A DNA stretch of 64,000 nucleotides from positions 62,001-126,000 of the forward strand of contig DASYBM010000013.1 of NCBI GenBank assembly GCA_036500765.1, written 5' to 3'. The DNA is from Candidatus Sulfotelmatobacter sp. (GTDB lineage: Bacteria > Acidobacteriota > Terriglobia > Terriglobales > Acidobacteriaceae). Of this stretch, positions 5,663 through 39,310 are shown piece after piece (within the stretch, counting starts at the first letter, position 1; each line of letters begins with the position of its first letter). The translations under genes were made by a program, and so were the position numbers. The notes beneath the pieces are model-generated. The model worked only from the letters and a program-made list of their open reading frames with translations, was not told the origin of the DNA and did no database searches.

Positions 5663-7018
5663 ATGAAGTTGCTGTCGAGAGTGGTGTGGGCGGAAGGGAT
5701 GTATCTGGCGCCGCAGCATTTTCAGGCGCAGAATCGCTACTTCGAGGAAGCCGTCCAATTTGCCACGGCCAGCTTGTGGAGAGATGCGTACGGACTGGCG
5801 GCCTGTCAGCTCGACGCCGATGCGCTGCGCAACGGAACTGTGAGCTTGCTGAGCGCACGAGGAATGTTTCAGGATGGCCTGCCTTTCGATATTCCTGAGT
5901 GCGATCCTCGTCCCGACCCGAAAAACATCGTGGAGCAATTTTTGCCCGCTACCGATAGCTTGACGGTTGCGCTAGCCGTGCCGCGCTGGGTGCAGGGGCA
6001 GCAAAATTGCGATCTTGACCCAATTCCCTCCGGGAGTGCCCGCTACACGAGCACCACCGAAATGGTGCACGACGAGAACACCGGTCTCGACGCCAAGCCG
6101 GTGAAGCTGGGGCGCAAGAATATCCGCTTGGTAGTGCTGCCTGCCGCAGATGAGAATCTGCTGACGATTCCCATTGGGCGGGTAATGCGGGATCAGTCGG
6201 GGCACTTCGTTTACGATCCCACGCACGTTTCGCCTTGCTTGCGGCTGAGTTCGAGTGAACGGCTGTCCTCGATGCTGAAGCGGCTGGTCGACATCCTCGA
6301 AGAGAAAAGCGCGGTTGTGGCCCAGGAACAACAGCAGACCGTTGGAGCATTTCAGACTGGGATGTCCGCGCGACAGGTTGCGCAATTCTGGTTTTTACAT
6401 GCGATTAACTCGAGCCTGACGCCGTTGCGTCATATTTTGCTGGCGAAGCATAGGCATCCGGAGGAACTGTTTCGCGAAATGTCGCGGCTGGCTGGGGCGC
6501 TGTGCACGTTTAGTTTGGATAGTAGTCCGCGCTCGCTGCCGGCTTATAACCACTACGATCCGGGGCCGAGCTTCGCGGCGCTTGAGGATCACATTGTTCG
6601 GCACCTCGAGATTATCGTTCCATCGCAAGCCGTGGTGATTCCGCTGAAGTCGGCTGCGCGTTATTTTTACGAAGGAGAGATCCGCGATCAGCGTTGCCTG
6701 GGGCGCTCGCGCTGGATTCTGGGACTGAGGTCGCCGGTGGGCGAAGCGGACGCGATCTCAAAAACATTGGAACTGGTGAAGGTGTGTTCCAGCCAATTTG
6801 TTCCCGAGTTGGTGAAACGGGCGCTGCCCGGTCTGACACTAAACCATATGCAGGTGCCTCCGGCGGCGATATCGGCAAAGGTCGATGCGCAGTATTTTGT
6901 CGTCACCCGCAGCGGGCCGTGCTGGGAGCACATTATGCGAACGCGCAACGTGGGCGTTTACGTGCCCGATAAATTACCGTCGCCTGAGTTGGAATTGATT
7001 GTGTTGCTAGAAAGCTGA
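5663..7018 (+). CDS. tssK: T6SS baseplate protein TssK, copy 1
   Basis: The 451-residue protein begins with the TssK signature (VVWAEGMYLAPQHFQAQNRY) and continues with NIPECDP-like and FLHAINS segments typical of the ImpJ/VasE family. The length equals that of known TssK. TssK forms trimers that dock the TssEFG baseplate wedge to the TssL/TssM membrane complex on the cytoplasmic side. The ATG follows AGGTGAAG. It opens the tssK-tssL-tssM operon; tssL follows after 8 nt. A second, divergent TssK lies at 37958. Confidence 0.93.
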   Translation: MKLLSRVVWAEGMYLAPQHFQAQNRYFEEAVQFATASLWRDAYGLAACQLDADALRNGTVSLLSARGMFQDGLPFDIPECDPRPDPKNIVEQFLPATDSLTVALAVPRWVQGQQNCDLDPIPSGSARYTSTTEMVHDENTGLDAKPVKLGRKNIRLVVLPAADENLLTIPIGRVMRDQSGHFVYDPTHVSPCLRLSSSERLSSMLKRLVDILEEKSAVVAQEQQQTVGAFQTGMSARQVAQFWFLHAINSSLTPLRHILLAKHRHPEELFREMSRLAGALCTFSLDSSPRSLPAYNHYDPGPSFAALEDHIVRHLEIIVPSQAVVIPLKSAARYFYEGEIRDQRCLGRSRWILGLRSPVGEADAISKTLELVKVCSSQFVPELVKRALPGLTLNHMQVPPAAISAKVDAQYFVVTRSGPCWEHIMRTRNVGVYVPDKLPSPELELIVLLES

Positions 7019-17918: not shown

Positions 17919-19319
17919 ATGGCGCCGTACGAGCCGAAAATCGACAGCCGGGAATTCGAGGTTGCCAACGCGGAGCAGTATCCGAACGCTTGGAGTGGAG
18001 AATCGCGCGCGGATATAACGGAGATCGCGTTTCGCCTTTGGGGTGCCGACCGGTCGCGGGGCAACGCTTTGACGTGGCATACCGAGAACGCCCTGGTGTA
18101 TCTGATTGCCGACCTGGTGGGCGCGAGTGGGGGACGGATTGCCGAGGACGGTCCTACGATCATGGTGGCGCAGTTCAATAGTCCCGGCCAAGCACTGGTT
18201 TCCGCAAAACGCATTCAGACTTCGATTCTGGAGTTCGTAGCCTGCCGCCCGGGCGAACGAATCGGAACAGCGGTTTTTATGTACAAGCCGAGGTCGAGCG
18301 AACTGACCGGTTATAGCACTGAACTGGTGCAACTGGCGCTCGAAAAGGCTCTGCCCGGGCAGATCCTGTTAGCGGAGAGCATGTGTGATCGCTTGCGCGA
18401 CCTTGCCGGTGCGGGATTTCGTCCGATTACAGAGGCGACTGGCGACGGGCAGAGCAGGCTCGTGGAGTTAATGTGGACCAACTCTGAGCGACTCGCTCAA
18501 CTGCAAAGTTCAGCAGGCGATGAAGATAGACCGGTTGAACCGGTAGGGGGTAGCGGCACTCCGCTCGGCGCCACACGGATCGTCCATTCTCCGATTACGC
18601 GGCGCGAACCGTTGAATGAAATTGTCCCGCCAGTGGTCGGAACAGGAAATCTGATGGTTAAGGGAATAGGTGGCGCAACCTCACAGCGCACGGGCCAAGC
18701 TCCCAATAGCACGCACGACAGAGCTCCAGTATTCGAACGGTTCGCGGAGAGTCCCAGCCGGGCGTTCACAGATGGGCTGGACGAATTCCGAGATCGACCA
18801 CTGTTCACGCGCAATAGGATTATCCTGGGCGTATTGGCGTTGGTTCTGGTGGCGGCGGTCGTTGCTGTCCTTTTCCGTCCAACTCAGGTGACGAAACGCC
18901 CGACTCAGCCGGTTGAGCCGCATCAAGACCAGATCGTTGGAGCGGAGAGTTCGGGTAAGCCGGCATCGGTTGGAACCGAATCCCCGGACAATAATGCACA
19001 GCCGGAAGCAGTGACGGTCAAGCCGAAAGCGAAGGAATCCCCAGCGGCCCCCCAGCAGCAAACGTCGAAAAAATCAACCGACAATCATAAGAGCAAGAAA
19101 GAAAATCCGGATGAGCCCGCGGCGCCGCCCTCCGAAGTTGGCGGGTACTCTCAAAAAGACATTCCGTTTTTGCTCACGACGGCTCAAGCGGATCTGGGGG
19201 CGGGGCGCTACGATGAGGCCAAGCTAAAATTTAAGAAGGTGCTGGCATTGCAGCCTAGCAATCAAGAGGCAAAAGAAGGGTTGCACAGGCTGGAGCTCTT
19301 TTCCAGGGATCAACAATAA
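17919..19319 (+). CDS. Cyclase-homology-like domain / TM helix / TPR protein, T6SS-associated
   Basis: The 466-residue protein has three parts. Residues about 30-190 resemble a degenerate class III nucleotide cyclase domain: GRIAEDGPTIMVAQFNSPGQALVSAKRIQTSI matches in outline (shown here as EDGPTIMVAQF then ALVSAKRIQ), and LPGQILLAESMCDRL matches the usual late motif. The metal-binding Asp pair is not evident, so cyclase activity is unlikely. A single TM helix lies near 299-320 (IILGVLALVLVAAVVAVLF). After a Pro/Lys-rich linker, a TPR-like pair (about 408-460, LGAGRYDEAKLKFKKVLALQPS) ends the protein. It heads the main T6SS gene run and is followed by the TssB-TssC fusion. It may be a signal-sensing regulator acting with the kinase/phosphatase pair; this is inference. 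The ATG has no clear ribosome site. Confidence 0.55.
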   Translation: MAPYEPKIDSREFEVANAEQYPNAWSGESRADITEIAFRLWGADRSRGNALTWHTENALVYLIADLVGASGGRIAEDGPTIMVAQFNSPGQALVSAKRIQTSILEFVACRPGERIGTAVFMYKPRSSELTGYSTELVQLALEKALPGQILLAESMCDRLRDLAGAGFRPITEATGDGQSRLVELMWTNSERLAQLQSSAGDEDRPVEPVGGSGTPLGATRIVHSPITRREPLNEIVPPVVGTGNLMVKGIGGATSQRTGQAPNSTHDRAPVFERFAESPSRAFTDGLDEFRDRPLFTRNRIILGVLALVLVAAVVAVLFRPTQVTKRPTQPVEPHQDQIVGAESSGKPASVGTESPDNNAQPEAVTVKPKAKESPAAPQQQTSKKSTDNHKSKKENPDEPAAPPSEVGGYSQKDIPFLLTTAQADLGAGRYDEAKLKFKKVLALQPSNQEAKEGLHRLELFSRDQQ

Positions 19320-19457: not shown

Positions 19458-21017
19458 ATGCCGAAACCATTTGACTTCGGTGCCATCAATCTGACGACGG
19501 GCGAGGATAGCTCAAGAGCGCATCCCACGCCGGAGACACCGTTTTGCGTTGCGATTCTGGGTGACTTCAGTGGGCGGGCGAATCGCAGAATTGTCAACGT
19601 CGAGACGATCGGCGAGCGCCGCGCCGTGTTGGTGGATCGAGACAACTTCGATGAAGTGCTGTCCCGCGCAGGCGTTGAAATTCGGCTGGCGATGGGTAAC
19701 GATTCGCTCCAGTTGCGATTTTCCGAGCTGGACGATTTTCATCCCGACCGCGTTTTTCAAAATCTCGAGATCTTCGGGAAGCTGCGGGACCTCCGGGGAC
19801 GCCTGCAAGATTCTGCGAGGTTTAGGGAAGCGGCGGATGAATTGGAATTGGGTTCGAGTGCTGCGGTACGAGAGTCTGAAAGGCTAGAAGCCTTGCCTGC
19901 GGCTGCCCCAGTCGCCTCTCGATTGGCCTCTGGCAGTCTGCTGGACGAAATGATCGAGCAGAGCGAGGCTCGCGCCATCACGTCTTCGTATGAGAGATCG
20001 AATGAACGATCTGGTAAACGGCGCGATGACGTGGGCGAGTTCGCGCGACGGATAGTCGCGCAGCACCTGGTGAACAGTCCTGATCCTCGGCAGCCGGAGG
20101 TGCTGGCCGTAATCGACAACGCGATCGGCGGCTTGATGAGCGCGATTCTGCACCATCCCGACTGGCAGGCACTGGAGGCGATCTGGCGGGCGACGTTTCT
20201 TCTGGTGCGGCAACTCGAAACCGGGTCGAACCTCAAGCTTTATTTGTTCGATATCACCAAGCAGGAATTGGCGGCCGACCTGGGTTCGGGAAATGACCTG
20301 AGGAATACGGGTACTTATCGACTGCTCGTGGAAAAGAGTGTTGGAACTCAAGGCGCTGAGCCGTGGGCAATTCTCGTGGGGAACTACCGTTTCGGTCCGT
20401 CGGAGGATGACACAAGACTCCTTTTTCGGATGGCCGAGGTCGCACAAGGAGCTGGCGCGCCATTCCTGGCCGAAGCCGAAGCTCAGCTTCTGGGCTGCTC
20501 ATCACTCGAGTCCACGCCTCATCCCAGAGAATGGGCTCTGCCCGGGAAACTAGCTCGCTGGTCGGAACTGCGGCGGCAGACGGAAGCATCTGCGGTTGGA
20601 CTGGCGCTGCCCCGATTCCTGCTCCGTCTGCCATACGGCAAGAAGACCTCAGCTTTAGAGTCATTCGACTTCGAAGAAATGACTGACAAGCGGGTTCACG
20701 AAGACTACCTGTGGGGAAATCCGGCTTTTGCGACTGCGCTCCTGCTGGCGGAATCCTTCAGTGAAGCGGGCTGGGAGATGCATCCAGGGAGCGTGGCGCA
20801 AATTGACAACCTGCCGATTCATGTCTACAGCCGGAATGGGCAGCTGGAATCGCAGCCGTGTGCCGAAGTTGCGCTGCCCGAGGATGCGGTCGAACGCATG
20901 ATCGAGGACGGGTTGATTCCGCTGATTTCGTTCAAGGACCGGGACCTGGTGCGCGTGGCGAGATTTCAATCGGTCGCCGATCCAGCGCGGGGCCTGGCGG
21001 GACGGTGGGTGAAATAG
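19458..21017 (+). CDS. TssB-TssC fusion, C-terminally shortened sheath-like protein
   Basis: The 519-residue protein joins two sheath modules in one frame. Residues about 20-115 match TssB (FCVAILGDFSGRANRR, DNFDEVLSRAGVEIRL, LDDFHPDRVFQNLEIF). Residues about 155-519 match TssC (LLDEMIEQ, WQALEAIWRATFLLVRQLE, WAILVGNYRFG, LPRFLLRLPYGKKTSALES, YLWGNPAFATALLLA). Comparison with the separate TssC at 21814 shows it stops near the segment equal to FFSIQS, so about 125 C-terminal residues of TssC are absent. It therefore lacks the terminal part that helps link sheath rings. It may cap, initiate or regulate the sheath instead of polymerising like TssBC. The ATG follows AAGGA at 7 nt. The frame is continuous, so this is not a frameshift product. 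Confidence 0.85.
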   Translation: MPKPFDFGAINLTTGEDSSRAHPTPETPFCVAILGDFSGRANRRIVNVETIGERRAVLVDRDNFDEVLSRAGVEIRLAMGNDSLQLRFSELDDFHPDRVFQNLEIFGKLRDLRGRLQDSARFREAADELELGSSAAVRESERLEALPAAAPVASRLASGSLLDEMIEQSEARAITSSYERSNERSGKRRDDVGEFARRIVAQHLVNSPDPRQPEVLAVIDNAIGGLMSAILHHPDWQALEAIWRATFLLVRQLETGSNLKLYLFDITKQELAADLGSGNDLRNTGTYRLLVEKSVGTQGAEPWAILVGNYRFGPSEDDTRLLFRMAEVAQGAGAPFLAEAEAQLLGCSSLESTPHPREWALPGKLARWSELRRQTEASAVGLALPRFLLRLPYGKKTSALESFDFEEMTDKRVHEDYLWGNPAFATALLLAESFSEAGWEMHPGSVAQIDNLPIHVYSRNGQLESQPCAEVALPEDAVERMIEDGLIPLISFKDRDLVRVARFQSVADPARGLAGRWVK

Positions 21018-21302: not shown

Positions 21303-21821
21303 ATGGCAAAACCGAGCACGCAGCACAAATTAGATCGGGTGCGTCCGCCTCGCGTACAGATCACCTACGATGTGGAAACCGGCGGCGCGATTGAGATTAA
21401 AGAACTGCCGTTCGTCGTGGGAGTCCTGGGCGACTTCACCGGCCAACCCGAACAACCACTACCCAAGTTGAAGGAACGCCGGTTCGTCGAAGTTACCCCT
21501 GACAACTTCGATTCCGTGCTGGAAAGCATGAAACCACATTTGTCGTTTGCGGTGGAAAACAAGTTGAGCGAAGACTCGAATGCCGGCCAAATACGCGTCG
21601 ATCTGAAGTTCAAGAGCCTGGAAGATTTCGAACCCGAGCAAGTAGCGCGGCAAGTAAAACCGTTGAAGGAGTTGCTCGACCTGCGCACGCGGCTCAACGA
21701 TCTGAAGGGCACGCTCCAGACGAACGACAAACTGGACGAGGCTTTGCTCGATGCGGTGAGCAAAACCGACAAGCTCGACAAACTGAAATCCGAAGTCGGG
21801 AAGGGAGAACCCAATGCCTGA
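21303..21821 (+). CDS. tssB: T6SS contractile sheath small subunit TssB (VipA/ImpB)
   Basis: The 172-residue protein has the TssB pattern: RVQITYDVETGGAIEIKELP, FVVGVLGDFTGQP, FVEVTPDNFDSVLESMKP, LKFKSLEDFEPEQVARQV and PLKELLDLRTRLNDLKG. TssB pairs with TssC to build the contractile sheath in the cytoplasm. The ATG follows AGGGAGATAAC. The gene overlaps tssC by 8 nt, so the two are translationally coupled, as expected for a 1:1 complex. The 285 nt upstream hold no gene; a TTGACT (21135-21140) with a poor -10 might be a promoter. Confidence 0.95.
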   Translation: MAKPSTQHKLDRVRPPRVQITYDVETGGAIEIKELPFVVGVLGDFTGQPEQPLPKLKERRFVEVTPDNFDSVLESMKPHLSFAVENKLSEDSNAGQIRVDLKFKSLEDFEPEQVARQVKPLKELLDLRTRLNDLKGTLQTNDKLDEALLDAVSKTDKLDKLKSEVGKGEPNA

Positions 21822-23298
21822 GACTGAGAAAATAGCTGGTAGTACAGCCGTAGTAGAACAGGCTGCTCCGTCGAGCCTTCTCGACCAGATCGTGGAACAG
21901 GGGCGATTCAGCGATGCGAGTGCGCGGGAGCGTGGCAAGGGGCTGATCAAGGAATTCGTGGCCCAGGTGCTGGAAGGTTCGATGACGCTGGGGCGCGACG
22001 CCGACCAGATGATTTCCGCGCGCGTAGCGCAGATCGATCATTTGATTTCGCTCCAGTTAAACGAAGTCCTGCACAATGCGCAGTTCCAGAAACTGGAGTC
22101 CACCTGGCGCGGACTGAAGTATTTGCTGGACCAGTCGGAAACCGGCAGTCAGTTGAAGATTCGTATCCTGAACGCCTCGAAGAAGGACTTGCTGCGCGAC
22201 TTGCAGCGGGCGCCTGAATTCGATCAAAGCGCGATGTTCAAGAAGGTTTACGAAGAAGAGTACGGACTGTTTGGCGGCGAACCGTTCGGCGCCCTGGTGG
22301 GCGATTATGAGTTCAGCAAGCATCCGGAAGATTTGGAATTGCTGGAGAAGGTCTCCCAGGTGGCGGCATCGGCTCACGCGCCTTTCCTGTCGGCGGCTTC
22401 CTCAGAGTTGCTGAACATGGACAGTTTCACCAATCTGGATCAGCCGCGGGATATCGCCAAGATCTTTGACAGCACCGAGTACGCCAAGTGGAAGGGATTC
22501 CGCGAGAGCGAAGACTCTAAGTATGTCTGCCTGACTTGCCCGCGGGTCTTGATGCGTCTGCCGTATGGCAGAGATACTGCGCCGGTGGAGGGATTCAACT
22601 TCGAAGAGGGCGTGGACGGCACGGATCACTCGAAGTATCTGTGGGGCAACGCGGCTTTTGCGCTGGCCTCGAAGATGACGCAGGCGTTCGCCACTTACGG
22701 ATGGTGCGTCGCGATTCGCGGCGTCGAAGGCGGCGGTCTGGTCGACGGACTTCCTTCGCATACCTTCCGCACCGACGAAGGCGATGTCGCTTTGAAGTGC
22801 CCGACCGAGATTGCCATCACCGATCGCCGCGAAAAAGAACTGGCGGATCAAGGGCTGGTTTCTTTGGTCCACTGCAAAGGCACGGACAAGGCTGCGTTCT
22901 TCAGCATCCAGTCCTGCAACAAGCCCAAACTGTATGACAGCGATGCGGCGACGGCCAATGCGCGGATTTCGGCGCAGTTGCCGTACATGATGGCGACCTG
23001 CCGTTTTGCCCATTACCTGAAGGCGATGATGCGCGATAAAATCGGCGGCTTCATGTCACGCGACGATTGCTGGCGCTTCCTGAATCGCTGGATCGGCCAG
23101 TATGTCACGCAAGACGACAAGGCTACCCAGACGACCAAAGCCAAGTTCCCCTTGCGCGAAGCGAGGGTGGATGTGGAGGAAGTCAAAGGCAAGCCCGGAG
23201 TTTATCGTGCGATCGCTTATCTGCGGCCTCACTTCCAGCTCGACGAATTGAGTGTATCTCTCCGGTTGGTGGCGGAGTTGCCGGCGGCAGCAAAGTAA
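21814..23298 (+). CDS. tssC: T6SS contractile sheath large subunit TssC (VipB/ImpC)
   Basis: The 494-residue protein has the full TssC length and motifs: FQKLESTWRGLKYLLDQSE, FGALVGDYEFS, PRVLMRLPYGRDTAPVEGF, YLWGNAAFALASKM and the C-terminal ring-linking region (FLNRWIGQYV, AYLRPHFQLDELSVSLRLV). It forms the sheath with TssB and is the substrate ClpV pulls apart. It starts inside the end of tssB. Downstream lie a 15-nt tandem repeat and hcp. Confidence 0.96.
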   Translation: MPETEKIAGSTAVVEQAAPSSLLDQIVEQGRFSDASARERGKGLIKEFVAQVLEGSMTLGRDADQMISARVAQIDHLISLQLNEVLHNAQFQKLESTWRGLKYLLDQSETGSQLKIRILNASKKDLLRDLQRAPEFDQSAMFKKVYEEEYGLFGGEPFGALVGDYEFSKHPEDLELLEKVSQVAASAHAPFLSAASSELLNMDSFTNLDQPRDIAKIFDSTEYAKWKGFRESEDSKYVCLTCPRVLMRLPYGRDTAPVEGFNFEEGVDGTDHSKYLWGNAAFALASKMTQAFATYGWCVAIRGVEGGGLVDGLPSHTFRTDEGDVALKCPTEIAITDRREKELADQGLVSLVHCKGTDKAAFFSIQSCNKPKLYDSDAATANARISAQLPYMMATCRFAHYLKAMMRDKIGGFMSRDDCWRFLNRWIGQYVTQDDKATQTTKAKFPLREARVDVEEVKGKPGVYRAIAYLRPHFQLDELSVSLRLVAELPAAAK

Positions 23299-23969: not shown

Positions 23970-24111
23970 CTGGGCGAGACTGGCTTGGCAAGTGTTTGGC
24001 GGTTGTAACCTGGAAGTTGGAATACGCGAGGCATCTTCAGGGCGGGTCTTGCTCGGTACATGTGAGCCGCGCCCGGAGGTGCCTCGCCTTAATTGCAATA
24101 GCGGGTGGGCT

Positions 24112-24834
24112 ATGAATGCGCAGGAACTATATCGGGCGGGCCGGTTGTCGGAGGCGATTACCGCCTTGGGCGCGGAGGTTCGCGAAAACCCGATCGACGC
24201 CCGTCGACGAACTTTTCTCTTTGAGTTGCTCTGCTTTGCGGGCGAATACGCCCGAGCGGACAAGCAACTCGAAGTTCTAGGCCAAGCCGGGCCATCGAGT
24301 GAAATCGGCGTCATGCTGTATCGCAGCGCTTTGTACGCCGATCGGCAACGTCAGGATTTGTTTGCCAACAGCGCGCCCGCAGCCGCGGCAGAACCTGCGG
24401 GAACGGCCACGGTCGGCATGTTCAACGGAAAGCAGTTCGAATCGCTCACCGACGCAGACCCGCGGATTGGGCCCAGGCTTGAACTTTACGCTGCCGGAAA
24501 TTATCTCCTGCTGCCCTTCGAACACATCGCATCGATTCACATCCAGCCGCCGAAGCGGTTGCGCGATCTTTTATGGACGCCGGCAGCCGTCCGCACCAAT
24601 TCGTCATTCAAGGGCGCGGAACTGGGCGAAGTTTTGCTTCCGGTGTTAGCGCCATTTTCGTGGAAGCACGCCGATGAGATTGTGCGCCTGGGGCGGGCAA
24701 CGGTTTGGGAGTCGCAGCAAGGCTACGACGAGCAGATTCCCGTGGGCCAGAAGATGTGGCTGGTGGACGATGAGGAAATTCCGTTTTTGGAGTTGCGCGC
24801 GCTCGAGTTCGATTCCGCTGCCGTGGCCGCCTGA
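24112..24834 (+). CDS. tagJ: T6SS accessory protein TagJ (ImpE family)
   Basis: The 240-residue soluble protein begins with a TPR-like segment (AQELYRAGRLSEAITALGAE, RRRTFLFELLCFAGEYARAD) and continues with the ImpE core (LYRSALYADRQR, LLLPFEHIASI, RLRDLLWTPA). In Pseudomonas TagJ binds TssB and ClpV and assists sheath disassembly. The ATG at 24112 begins the conserved core, while an open frame reaching back to 23992 is unconserved. The gene sits between hcp and tssA and ends 6 nt before tssA. Confidence 0.88.
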   Translation: MNAQELYRAGRLSEAITALGAEVRENPIDARRRTFLFELLCFAGEYARADKQLEVLGQAGPSSEIGVMLYRSALYADRQRQDLFANSAPAAAAEPAGTATVGMFNGKQFESLTDADPRIGPRLELYAAGNYLLLPFEHIASIHIQPPKRLRDLLWTPAAVRTNSSFKGAELGEVLLPVLAPFSWKHADEIVRLGRATVWESQQGYDEQIPVGQKMWLVDDEEIPFLELRALEFDSAAVAA

Positions 24835-30082: not shown

Positions 30083-32860
30083 ATGAACCTGAAATCTTTA
30101 ATCGGAAAGTTGAACGATTCTACACGCGCGACGCTGGATGCAGCGGCATCGTTCTGCCTGGCGCGCAGGCACTATGACGTCGAAGTCGAGCACTACCTGA
30201 CGAGATTGCTGGATTCGACGGACAACGACGCGGCCGCGATTTTCAAACACTTCGAAGTCGATACCTCGAGATTTTCTGCGGAACTGGCGCGGGCGCTGGA
30301 CAAGCTGAAAACGGGCAACGCACGGACGCCCTCTTTAAGTCCGACGGTTATGAGAATGCTGATTGAGGCCTGGACGATCGGCTCGATCGACTACAGCGCT
30401 GCGCAGGTGCGCACCGGCTTCACCATTCTCGCGCTGGCGACACATGACGAATTGGTGCGGCTGATGCGCGAGGTGAGCCGCGAATTTCAGAAGATTCAGG
30501 CGGATGAGTTACGCAAGGACTTCGCCTCCATCGTCGGGAATTCGATCGAGGAGGAACAGGCAGCGGCAGCAGTTGCCGCGGCGGCGGCCCCGGGTGCCTC
30601 TGCGAACGCGTCGCGCCCCGGCGGCAAGACTCCCAATCTTGACCAGTTCACTATCAATCTCACGGAGAAAGCCAAGACCGGGAAGATTGATCCAGTGCTG
30701 GGGCGCGATTTTGAGATTCGCCAGGTGGTCGACATCCTGATGCGGCGTCGGCAGAATAACCCGATTCTTACCGGCGAAGCGGGAGTGGGGAAGACCGCCG
30801 TGGTAGAAGGCTTTGCGCTGCGCGTCGCCGACGGCGATGTGCCTCCGCCGCTGCGCAATGTCACGGTGCGCACTCTTGATCTGGCTCTCCTGCAAGCGGG
30901 AGCGGGTATTAAAGGTGAATTTGAAAATCGACTGAAGGGCCTGATCGAAGAAGTGAAGGCATCGCCCATTCCGATCATTCTGTTCATCGACGAAGCCCAC
31001 ACCATGATCGGAGCGGGCGGGCAGGCGGGGCAGGGAGATGCGGCGAATCTATTGAAGCCGGCGCTGGCGCGCGGCGAGTTGCGCACCATCGCCGCCACGA
31101 CCTGGTCGGAATACAAGAAATACTTCGAGAAAGATCCTGCGCTGGCTCGCCGTTTCCAAGTCGTAAAGGTGGAAGAGCCGGTTGAGATGCAATGTATGAC
31201 CATGCTGCGCGGCATTGTCCCGTCGCTGGAGAAGCACCATAAGGTCCGCATTTTGGATGAGGGATTGAATGCCGCCGTGCATCTTTCACACCGCTATCTC
31301 GCGGGTAGGCAGTTGCCCGACAAAGCGGTGAGCGTGCTCGACACGGCGTGTGCGCGGTTGGCGCTGGGACAAAGCGCAACTCCGCCTGCCATTGAAGACA
31401 GCGTTCGGCAGATCGACGATTTCGCGGTGCAGAAACGCATTCTGGAACGGGAAGCCTTGGTGGGCACAGACCATCGCGAGAGACTGCAGGAAATTGCCAC
31501 GAAGAGCGCGGAAATCGAATCGCGTCTGGCCGGCTTACGAACCCGTTTTGAGAAAGAACGCGACCTGGTGACGACGATTCGCGACTTGCGGTCGCAACTC
31601 GAGGGCGCGGCTGCCCAGAATGGCAACGCCGCTGCACATGCCGAAATACCTGGAGTCGCGACCGGGCCCTCAGGGTCAACCGCTCCGGGCGATGCTGCTA
31701 CAGCTCCAGCCTCTGCTGCTTCGTCATCCTCTAGCACGGCGACCGCGGTCGAAGAAGCCCCCAAGGCCGTGGATGTAACCGCCATGCGCGCTCAATTAGC
31801 GCAGGCCGAGAGTGATTTAGCAGTGTTGCAGGGCGAGTCTCCGATGATCCGCGTCGCCGTCGATGCTCAGCTGGTCGGCGAAGTGATCTCGGCCTGGACG
31901 GGAATTCCCGTCGGCAAAATGATGAAGGACGAAATTTCTACGATCCTTTCTCTGCCGAACTTTTTGGGCCAGCGCGTGATTGGGCAGATCCACGCGCTCG
32001 AAATCATCAGCCAGCGCATCTCGACCTCGCGTGCGCGTCTCGACGATCCCAACAAGCCAATCGGAGTTTTCATGCTGGTCGGGCCCAGCGGAGTGGGCAA
32101 GACCGAAACCGCACTGGCGCTCTCCGATCTTCTGTACGGCGGTGAGAGAAATCTGATCACGATCAACATGTCGGAGTTCCAGGAAGCGCATACCGTGTCG
32201 ACGCTGAAGGGTTCGCCTCCGGGCTACGTGGGATATGGCGAAGGTGGGGTACTGACCGAGGCAGTCAGGCGCCGGCCGTATTCGGTGGTGCTGCTCGATG
32301 AAGTCGAGAAAGCGCATCCCGATGTGCTTGAGCTTTTCTACCAGGTCTTCGACAAGGGACACATGGAAGACGGCGAGGGCCGCGAAATCGATTTCAAGAA
32401 CACGATTATCATTCTCACGACCAATGCAGGCACTGACACCATGGCGAAACTGTGTGCCGACCCCGAGACAATGCCGGGGCCCGAAGGCCTGGTGAAAGCG
32501 CTGAAGCCGGAACTCAATAAGATTTTCAAGCCGGCATTTCTGGGTCGCATGGTGCTGATTCCGTACTTCCCCATTCGCGACGAAAATCTGAAGCAGATTA
32601 TCCGGCTGAAGCTGGGAAAGATTCAGCGCCGCATGCAGGAAAATCACAAAATCGAGATGACCTTCGATGGCGCGCTGGTAGACGCGGTTGCGAGTCGCTG
32701 TACGGAAGTAGAAAGTGGCGCGCGCAATGTGGATAACATTCTCACCAACACGCTGCTGCCCGACATTTCGCGACAGCTTTTGGGACGGATGGCGGCGAAT
32801 GAGCCGATGGAGCGAATTCATGTTGGCATTAGCGCCGATGGGGCATTCGATTATCGATAG
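30083..32860 (+). CDS. clpV: T6SS sheath-recycling ATPase ClpV (TssH)
   Basis: The 925-residue Clp/Hsp100 protein has an N-terminal Clp repeat domain (about 1-145), AAA1 with GEAGVGKTA and ILFIDEAH, a middle domain, and AAA2 with GPSGVGKTE and VLLDEVEKAHP. It unfolds contracted TssC to recycle the sheath. Two low-complexity inserts stand out: an Ala-rich link after the N-domain (about 150-175) and a Ser/Ala/Thr-rich stretch in the middle domain (about 530-560). Position after tssG and before vgrG is usual for T6SS loci. ATG at 30083. Confidence 0.95.
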   Translation: MNLKSLIGKLNDSTRATLDAAASFCLARRHYDVEVEHYLTRLLDSTDNDAAAIFKHFEVDTSRFSAELARALDKLKTGNARTPSLSPTVMRMLIEAWTIGSIDYSAAQVRTGFTILALATHDELVRLMREVSREFQKIQADELRKDFASIVGNSIEEEQAAAAVAAAAAPGASANASRPGGKTPNLDQFTINLTEKAKTGKIDPVLGRDFEIRQVVDILMRRRQNNPILTGEAGVGKTAVVEGFALRVADGDVPPPLRNVTVRTLDLALLQAGAGIKGEFENRLKGLIEEVKASPIPIILFIDEAHTMIGAGGQAGQGDAANLLKPALARGELRTIAATTWSEYKKYFEKDPALARRFQVVKVEEPVEMQCMTMLRGIVPSLEKHHKVRILDEGLNAAVHLSHRYLAGRQLPDKAVSVLDTACARLALGQSATPPAIEDSVRQIDDFAVQKRILEREALVGTDHRERLQEIATKSAEIESRLAGLRTRFEKERDLVTTIRDLRSQLEGAAAQNGNAAAHAEIPGVATGPSGSTAPGDAATAPASAASSSSSTATAVEEAPKAVDVTAMRAQLAQAESDLAVLQGESPMIRVAVDAQLVGEVISAWTGIPVGKMMKDEISTILSLPNFLGQRVIGQIHALEIISQRISTSRARLDDPNKPIGVFMLVGPSGVGKTETALALSDLLYGGERNLITINMSEFQEAHTVSTLKGSPPGYVGYGEGGVLTEAVRRRPYSVVLLDEVEKAHPDVLELFYQVFDKGHMEDGEGREIDFKNTIIILTTNAGTDTMAKLCADPETMPGPEGLVKALKPELNKIFKPAFLGRMVLIPYFPIRDENLKQIIRLKLGKIQRRMQENHKIEMTFDGALVDAVASRCTEVESGARNVDNILTNTLLPDISRQLLGRMAANEPMERIHVGISADGAFDYR

Positions 32861-37698: not shown

Positions 37699-37957
37699 CC
37701 GCTCCAGCCAGTTCCATCGAATCCGGTAGCAGCACAAACGACTGTCCATTCCTGGCGGCGTCGCATCCTTAAAATTCAGCAGTTCGGGGCTTTCCCGTGC
37801 ATTCCATTCCTTCTCGGCGGATTTTGGGCTCCGAAACTTTTCGATCCTGATTTGCCCTTTGCTTCCTGGCGCAGGAATTGCTATCGTGGGCAACCGTGCC
37901 CAGAATGGCTTGGCATTGTTGTTCCGGGCCGGCCCAAGTGTTCCTCGCCGCGATTCT

Positions 37958-39310
37958 ATGAAGCAGCTCAAGCCAGTTCTGTGGACGAAGGGAACATTCC
38001 TGACGCCCCAACATCTCCAGGTGCAGGATCGCTTCATCGAGGACGCGCTCAATTTTCGACTACAAGCGCTCAAGTTCTGTCCGTGGGGTTTTCGCGATCT
38101 GGCGATCAATGCGGAACTGCTGGCGGAAGGGCAGTTTGCAGTGACGCGCGCCACCGGCATTTTTCCAGACGGGCTGCTCTTCGAGATTCCGGAGGCCGAC
38201 CCCCCGCCGCCATCCAAATCGCTGGAAGAATTCTTCGAGCCCGGGGTGAAGAGCCTCGATATGTACCTCGCGATTCCTGACTATCGGCAACGGGGATTGA
38301 ATGTTTCGACCGGCAAGGAAGGAGGCACGCGGTATCTCGCGGAAGTTACCGAGTTTCGCGACGAAAATACCGGCAGCAGCGAGAAATTGATCCAGGTGGC
38401 GCGGAAGAATATGAGGCTGCTGTCGGATTCGGAGAACCGCGAAGGCTCTTCCGTGTTGCGCATTGCGAACGTGGAAAAAACTGCGGCTGGCACGTATCAG
38501 TTGAATCCTCGATTTATTCCACCACTGATCGAGATTGGCGCGAGCGAGTATCTAGTCGGATTGTTACGCGGCCTGGTGGAGTTACTCTCGGCCCGCAGCA
38601 CGCAGCTTTCGGCCGGACGGCGGCAGAAAAACCAGAGCCTGGCCGATTTCACCGCTTCCGATATAGCCAACTTTTGGTTGCTGTATACCGTCAATTCCAA
38701 CTTCCCGGCATTTTCCCATCTGTATGAGAGCAAGATGGGTCATCCCGAGGAGTTGTACGCGGCGATGGTGGCGCTGGGAGGATCGCTCACGACATTTTCT
38801 CCCAAGCTCCGGCCACGCGATCTGCCGCTCTACGTGCACGATTCCCTGGGCCCGATTTTCTCGGAACTCGATGAAAAGCTCCGCTTGTTGCTGGAAACGG
38901 TAGTGCCGACGAACCTGGTTTCGCTGCCGCTGAAGTTTGCGCAGGACTCCATTTACTCCACAGCCATTGACCACGATAAGTATCTGACGAATACGCGCAT
39001 GTATTTGGCGCTAAGCGCCGAAACCACCGAAGAAACCATCATTCAGAAGGTGCCACAACTGGTGAAAGTCTGTTCGGCGACGCACATTGAGCACCTGGTG
39101 AGGCAGGCCTTACCAGGAATTCAGTTGCGCCATCTGACCAATCCGCCCAGCGCGATTCCAGTGAAATTGAAGTATCAGTATTTTGCGTTGAACCAATCGG
39201 GACCTGCGTGGGAGGCTGTAACCCGTGCCAGAAATTTCGCGGCTTATGTTCCGGGCGATCTTCCGAATCCCACCCTCGAATTGTTGATCCTCTTGCCCCA
39301 AGCGAACTGA
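37958..39310 (+). CDS. tssK: T6SS baseplate protein TssK, copy 2
   Basis: The 450-residue protein has the TssK N-terminal signature (PVLWTKGTFLTPQHLQVQDR) and the same block order as copy 1: IFPDGLLFEIPEADP, FWLLYTVNSNFPAFSHLYE, HPEELYAAMVALGG, LVKVCSATHIEHLVRQALPG, ending in VPGDLPNPTLELLIL. The lengths are almost identical, but the sequences differ along their whole extent, so it is an old paralogue. It is 32 kb away from copy 1 on the same strand, beside accessory genes. The start ATG 37958 matches the family N-terminus, while an upstream in-frame extension is unconserved. It may serve alternative baseplates. Confidence 0.92.
   Translation: MKQLKPVLWTKGTFLTPQHLQVQDRFIEDALNFRLQALKFCPWGFRDLAINAELLAEGQFAVTRATGIFPDGLLFEIPEADPPPPSKSLEEFFEPGVKSLDMYLAIPDYRQRGLNVSTGKEGGTRYLAEVTEFRDENTGSSEKLIQVARKNMRLLSDSENREGSSVLRIANVEKTAAGTYQLNPRFIPPLIEIGASEYLVGLLRGLVELLSARSTQLSAGRRQKNQSLADFTASDIANFWLLYTVNSNFPAFSHLYESKMGHPEELYAAMVALGGSLTTFSPKLRPRDLPLYVHDSLGPIFSELDEKLRLLLETVVPTNLVSLPLKFAQDSIYSTAIDHDKYLTNTRMYLALSAETTEETIIQKVPQLVKVCSATHIEHLVRQALPGIQLRHLTNPPSAIPVKLKYQYFALNQSGPAWEAVTRARNFAAYVPGDLPNPTLELLILLPQAN

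Follow-up and report, generated by a model that had tools for sequence, protein, structure and literature searches.

A TssB–TssC fusion without the handshake domain in a type VI secretion locus of Candidatus Sulfotelmatobacter: a conserved sheath paralogue with a possible role at the sheath end

Results

Architecture and predicted structure of the fusion

The DNA analyzed here, called the window below, is a stretch of 64,000 nucleotides from Candidatus Sulfotelmatobacter sp. (contig DASYBM010000013.1, positions 62,001 to 126,000) with a type VI secretion system (T6SS) region. Upstream of the normal sheath genes tssB and tssC it carries a gene, FUS, whose product combines modules resembling TssB and TssC in one chain and lacks the domain that links sheath rings. 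Because this inner handshake domain is missing, FUS would be unable to propagate a sheath; it probably acts on the sheath end or on sheath recycling rather than on sheath building. It is most likely a low-copy sheath accessory, unable to propagate the sheath and handled by ClpV. What stops the growth of the T6SS sheath and occupies its distal end is not settled. A conserved sheath paralogue in which precisely the ring-accepting domain is absent is a natural candidate here, either as a factor that controls the end or the length of the sheath or as a regulator facing ClpV.

The Pfam scan of the 519-residue product gave matches to T6SS_VipA (Table 1) and to VipB (residues 215–505, E 3e-67) and found no VipB_2, whereas the window's own TssC has VipB at residues 69–368 and VipB_2 at residues 379–489. 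The scores lie below the NCBIfam equivalog cut-offs (227 against 271.5 for TIGR03355 and 51 against 97 for TIGR03358), and by this measure FUS is neither a canonical TssC nor a canonical TssB. It can be aligned with the window TssC up to about residue 371, so that about 123 residues are missing. The preliminary description, made from the sequence, had reported a continuous frame with both modules, a loss of about 125 C-terminal residues that help to connect sheath rings, and normal TssB and TssC following in the same run, and it was accurate on each of these points. The missing part is the handshake domain, i.e., TssC β11–β13, which supplies the acceptor and the C-terminal donor strand and links the rings of the sheath (PMC5807055, PMC5813253); FUS has neither the acceptor nor the donor. 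An AAGGA sequence lies about 10 nt 5′ of the FUS start codon, and a scan for promoters and terminators gave matches at chance level only.

Table 1. Features of the fusion gene and of its surroundings (coordinates within the window).
Feature	Position	Strand	Evidence or remark
FUS, TssB–TssC fusion without the VipB_2 handshake domain	19458..21017	+	519 aa, one unbroken ATG frame
TssB-like module, aa 20–146	19515..19895	+	PF05591, 54 bits
TssC-like module (sheath domain 2), aa 208–505	20079..20972	+	PF05943, 227 bits; TssC chains, Z 28–35
N-terminal stretch aa 5–14, FDFGAINLTT, at the place of the TssB β1 donor strand; candidate donor arm	19470..19499	+	alternating-hydrophobic pattern; low pLDDT in the monomer model
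LLDEMI, aa ~161–166, in the flexible linker; matches the ClpV-binding LLDEII/LLDEIM motif of TssC N-termini	19938..19955	+	sequence; alignment to window TssC; predicted helix 161–170
Family-specific C-terminus FQSVADPARGLAGRW, where TssC runs on into VipB_2	20964..21008	+	near-invariant residues in 61 sequences
tssB, normal small sheath subunit	21303..21821	+	PF05591, 197 bits; TIGR03358, 196 bits
tssC, normal large sheath subunit with VipB_2	21814..23298	+	PF05943, 459 bits; PF18945, 157 bits
TagJ/ImpE, accessory correlating with FUS presence	23992..24834	+	PF07024
ClpV/TssH ATPase	30083..32860	+	residue 6 is Leu, a feature of the V. cholerae class
Tetratricopeptide repeat (TPR) protein, fast-evolving, possible operon partner	17919..19319	+	upstream of FUS and conserved next to it within the genus

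Structure prediction of FUS by itself gave a confident monomer. The AlphaFold2 model, calculated from 61 sequences, has a predicted local distance difference test score (pLDDT) of 87.8 and a predicted template modeling score (pTM) of 0.85; low confidence is confined mainly to residues 1–20 and to the linker (131–200), where a short helix is predicted at residues 161–170. Residues 208–519 match the TssC chains of P. aeruginosa, V. cholerae, and M. xanthus with Z of 29–35, and the fit spans TssC 61–399, ending at the boundary of domains 2 and 1 (TssC residue ~400). The single-chain sheaths of the Photorhabdus virulence cassette (PVC), the antifeeding prophage (AFP), pyocin, and phages fit over residues ~25–519 with Z of about 13–17.5. 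Since the fit runs as far as the domain 2/1 boundary, FUS corresponds to a sheath protomer reduced to domains 2 and 3, the inner domain 1 being absent; it is predicted with confidence as a single-chain TssBC pseudo-heterodimer of the middle and outer domains only.

The RPPRVQ sequence of TssB is no longer found at the N-terminus of FUS. A strand-like alternating-hydrophobic N-terminus is present in 41 of the 61 family members, compared with 12.8 expected and a maximum of 22 in 500 shuffles.

A predicted ClpV-type helix in the linker

The ClpV-binding motif of V. cholerae VipB is LLDEIM (PMC4239648). The linker of the window FUS reads SLLDEMIEQ and the N-terminus of the window TssC SLLDQIVEQ, and a loose motif of this kind occurs in 45/61 FUS proteins. 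Eleven systems, a small sample, were compared by eye, and in 10 of them FUS has the motif type of its cognate TssC: an LLD-like stretch in seven of the eight whose TssC is of the LLD type, and an FxxLL or FxxLI stretch (MFGRLLG, VFERLLG, AFQQLIG) in the three whose TssC is of the xFASLL type. The sequence thus places in FUS an LLDEII-type helix of ClpV clients, and FUS may accordingly be a protein that ClpV handles.

Distribution and origin of the family

A scan of genome contigs found 262 relatives, of which the best 80 were kept; these come from Acidobacteriota, Desulfobacterota (Thermodesulfobacteriota), Myxococcota, Planctomycetota, Gemmatimonadota, and Gammaproteobacteria. The carriers include Candidatus Brocadia pituitae (Planctomycetota) and, among Gammaproteobacteria, Hahella ganghwensis and a Lamellibrachia endosymbiont. 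Further carriers, Rhodobacterales and Eleftheria terrae, came from plasmid records, in which the protein is annotated as TssC. The search for TssB joined to a C-terminally shortened TssC across loci, also suggested beforehand, yielded about 90 homologues from several phyla that share a GxW C-terminus and the absence of VipB_2. Six positions are near-invariant among the 61 aligned sequences (F503, S505, A507, L513, G515, W517), the GxW is followed by a median of one residue, and the shortened end is constitutive in the family. Annotation pipelines name proteins of this type as ordinary TssC. A sequence search of the PDB returned only TssB and TssC as relatives and no solved structure of the FUS type.

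The VipB-domain tree (quick search, unrooted, with a few long branches) contains one branch, with a Shimodaira–Hasegawa-like approximate likelihood ratio test (SH-aLRT) support of 100, that parts 97 FUS rows from 30 TssC rows, and a single origin of FUS is therefore compatible with these sequences.

Canonical TssC with VipB_2 is present in all 34 FUS-positive genomes checked, which belong to several phyla. Among 297 Acidobacteriota genomes, 46 have matches to the sheath family; a strong FUS occurs in 13 of them, and all 13 have a separate TssC (hypergeometric p ~6e-12, kinship uncorrected). TagJ was found in 31/34 FUS-positive genomes against 24/54 sheath-positive genomes without a strong FUS (Fisher p 1e-5, kinship uncorrected), the three FUS-positive genomes without it being Gammaproteobacteria with two adjacent VipB_2 genes.

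Clustering of neighboring genes revealed no conserved partner gene. Outside Blastocatellia the neighbors are ClpV, vgrG, or tssK. In Blastocatellia FUS has a stable orphan position away from the T6SS (loci L103, L105, L108, L110, L115, and L127–L132). There it lies between the housekeeping genes mnmE and mnmG, both named from their sequences, in the company of a small gene of PilZ-like type, and parA and parB come next; in family f6 it also lies elsewhere in the genome. FUS is thus often encoded outside the T6SS cluster and can therefore, judging by gene position, act in trans.

Conservation within the genus and selection

Five congeneric genomes (G012, G021, G016, G022, and G006) carry FUS upstream of tssB with an intact frame and 55–71% identity. 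A sixth copy (G034, L039:211-1700, in a fragmented metagenome-assembled genome, MAG) is broken into two overlapping frames; real loss and assembly error are both possible for this break. In two other congeners, G028 and G039, a T6SS is present and FUS is not detectable. The conservation of this architecture, in the same place with an intact frame in five congeners and across phyla, is far beyond chance.

Comparison with G012, G021, and G022 gave nonsynonymous divergence (dN) of 0.20–0.32 and synonymous divergence (dS) of 1.2–2.5, i.e., dN/dS of 0.13–0.17, a rough ratio since dS is near saturation. The corresponding dN is 0.01–0.03 for TssB and 0.04–0.05 for TssC, so that the FUS protein evolves about 5–10 times faster than the polymer subunits. 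These values point to purifying selection on a protein that is constrained, but not in the manner of a polymer subunit. A pseudogene or an assembly artefact is rejected by this selection, the conserved end, and the ~90 homologues, and the view of the preliminary description that the fusion is kept holds in relatives, where all copies but that of G034 are intact.

Discussion

Possible roles

The role that we tentatively favor is that of a distal-end stopper of the T6SS sheath. FUS, as a single-chain TssBC pseudo-protomer, would dock on the distal end of the assembled TssBC sheath via its TssB-like N-terminal arm; once docked, it would offer no acceptor for another ring, and growth would be stopped or capped; ClpV would then clear it together with the remainder of the contracted sheath. 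If the arm inserts, FUS would be able to occupy the distal ring, where, having no acceptor, it could take on nothing more. We infer its binding to the sheath, its low copy number, its distal position, and its handling by ClpV. The points in favor are the missing acceptor, the end of the model at the domain 2/1 boundary, the frequent strand-like N-terminus (41/61) and ClpV-motif-like helix (45/61), the constant company of TssC (34/34), dN/dS of about 0.15, and the covalent attachment of the core to a full TssB in all eight Rhodobacterales loci, a direct link between FUS and a sheath subunit. The preliminary description had proposed capping, seeding, or length control, and these appear compatible with the anatomy of FUS. 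If the stopper role is true, the T6SS would possess a sheath-derived protein of its own for the control of sheath length or of the sheath end. The wider proposal, that FUS is a widespread and overlooked part of the T6SS, a protomer without its head by which sheath polymerization is terminated or capped, we regard as rather doubtful.

Several points weigh against a distal stopper. FUS lacks the C-terminal strand of TssC, one of the two normal linkers, and docking would be weak. The N-terminal strand is predicted from the residue pattern alone and is not obvious in Rhodobacterales, and the low copy number is deduced solely from the evolutionary rate. Many T6SS, including those of the congeners G028 and G039, have no FUS. 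Finally, TssA-class proteins are known at the distal end, and the FUS locus has its own TssA. In V. cholerae the distal end of the sheath has been resolved, but which protein forms it was not clear from the structure (PMC5813253).

A role linked to ClpV, or one as a chaperone, is almost as good a fit as a cap. In the former, to which we give a lower but still appreciable probability, soluble FUS would display its TssC-like N-terminal helix, compete for or recruit ClpV, and tune the disassembly of contracted sheaths. The helix lies in a flexible linker and matches the class of the cognate TssC, and TagJ, itself a ClpV/TssB adaptor (PMC4239648), is enriched in FUS-positive genomes, although this association is uncorrected for kinship; moreover, about a quarter of the members have no recognizable motif, and a decoy would not need the whole sheath domain.

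It is unlikely that FUS is a baseplate-side element whose domains 2 and 3 complement TssE/gp25, a handshake-type domain alone, in a first pseudo-ring that seeds the sheath. The two anatomies are indeed complementary, and the structural matches include the single-chain sheath chains of PVC and AFP baseplate structures; however, in the current model the linkers of the first TssBC ring already find their acceptor in TssE alone (PMC5813253), FUS lacks the C-terminal linker of TssC believed to touch TssE, and some T6SS of the same genus have no FUS.

Hardly more probable, and if anything less so, is a chaperone or buffer that protects TssB or TssC monomers against premature or off-site polymerization. 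A pseudo-heterodimer without polymerization contacts could exchange with TssB or TssC, and genes outside the T6SS cluster would suit such a role, but the intramolecular TssB′–TssC′ pairing in the model looks complete and confident and leaves no free partner interface. A minor structural subunit that copolymerizes with TssBC along the sheath is very improbable: the core fold is that of the TssBC heterodimer, yet the whole inner domain is missing and evolution is far faster than in TssB and TssC. A decaying duplicate without function, for which the frame break in G034 and the patchy occurrence within genera might speak, is scarcely credible given an end and motifs conserved in the homologues across phyla, the dN/dS ratio, and one supported split from TssC.

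Comparison with known sheath proteins

The closest described protein is TssCL of roseobacters, a TssB–TssC fusion reported as two VipA and one VipB without a function (Suria et al. 2022, PMC9515649), the only account of natural TssB–TssC fusions found among open-licence PMC papers. The preliminary description had stated that no such role was known for the T6SS; the architecture had already been published as TssCL, with no function assigned. Like FUS of the window, TssCL has a TssB-like part and the N-terminal module of TssC in one chain beside tssB and tssC; unlike it, TssCL has an extra full N-terminal TssB, a long acidic Leu-rich linker, and an acidic tail, the window protein being a bare core. 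All eight Rhodobacterales loci show this order: full TssB (260–284 bits), an acidic Leu-rich linker of ~490–950 aa, the FUS core (390–418 bits), and the tail. Among the loci examined the extra TssB and the linker were seen only in Rhodobacterales, and the window protein is a core variant rather than TssCL proper. TssCL was reported only in Alphaproteobacteria and supposed to be recent (PMC9515649). In the unrooted quick tree two TssCL cores (L154 and L156) fall on the FUS side of the SH-aLRT 100 branch, apart from TssC; by sequence, TssCL, which had been thought recent and limited to Alphaproteobacteria, is one branch of a wider FUS family found in several phyla.

Separate tssA, tssB, and tssC are present in the Leisingera record that was checked. 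In Leisingera (L154:11085-15704) the annotated start of TssCL lies inside the acidic repeat linker, and the open frame is longer, with a full TssB first. The repeat units of the linker, e.g., DLDALLGGL, differ in number between strains. A fixed molecular ruler in Rhodobacterales is rejected, as the tether measures ~490–950 aa; a flexible tether appears more likely because the linker length varies even among Leisingera strains.

Canonical TssB/TssC (VipA/VipB) share with FUS both modules, the fold, and the ClpV-type N-terminal helix; FUS differs in being a single chain without VipB_2 and hence without the handshake acceptor and the C-terminal donor. The PVC, AFP, R-pyocin, and phage sheaths also hold both modules in one chain but have only about 10% identity to FUS. 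These single-chain proteins retain a handshake domain at the C-terminus and form the sheath on their own.

TssC40 (Atu4340) of Agrobacterium (PMC3702570) resembles FUS in being a second, non-redundant homologue of TssC encoded within a T6SS cluster. The Rhizobium gene adjoining tssC, which we took by position as the counterpart of TssC40, contains VipB together with VipB_2, lacks a TssB part, and groups with TssC; a TssC40-type paralogue is rejected for FUS, which has a TssB module and no VipB_2. The TssA-class distal-end proteins resemble FUS in the proposed site only and form an unrelated family; replacement of TssA is rejected, since FUS coexists with long and short TssA.

Other single-chain TssB–TssC proteins were also encountered. 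A second, much more divergent class (L159:3164-4729, L160:3112-4680, L165:2719-4290, and L161:2556-4148) comprises proteins of ~520–530 aa scoring 80–136 bits to the FUS profile; PP2C and FHA genes adjoin in three of these loci, and ClpV and VgrG flank the fourth. The fusion at L164:3022-4614 (531 aa) aligns with TssC through residue 474, apparently keeps the handshake domain, and adjoins a TssA-like gene; it is possibly a true single-chain T6SS sheath.

The T6SS locus of the window

The tssB gene starts 285 nt downstream of FUS, and the order after FUS is tssB, tssC, hcp, tagJ, tssA, tssE, tssF, tssG, clpV, and vgrG; tssK, tssL, tssM, and a second tssK also lie within the window. FUS and tssC are the only VipB genes in the 5.0-Mb source genome. 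The gene at 17919-19319, with a long divergent TPR gene on one side and FUS on the other, encodes a product with a weak TPR match and 36–52% identity in the genus. The two TssK genes (5663-7018 and 37859-39310; PF05936, 409 and 459 bits) are different and belong to one T6SS region, and such a pair recurs at other FUS loci, e.g., L071, L075, and L112.
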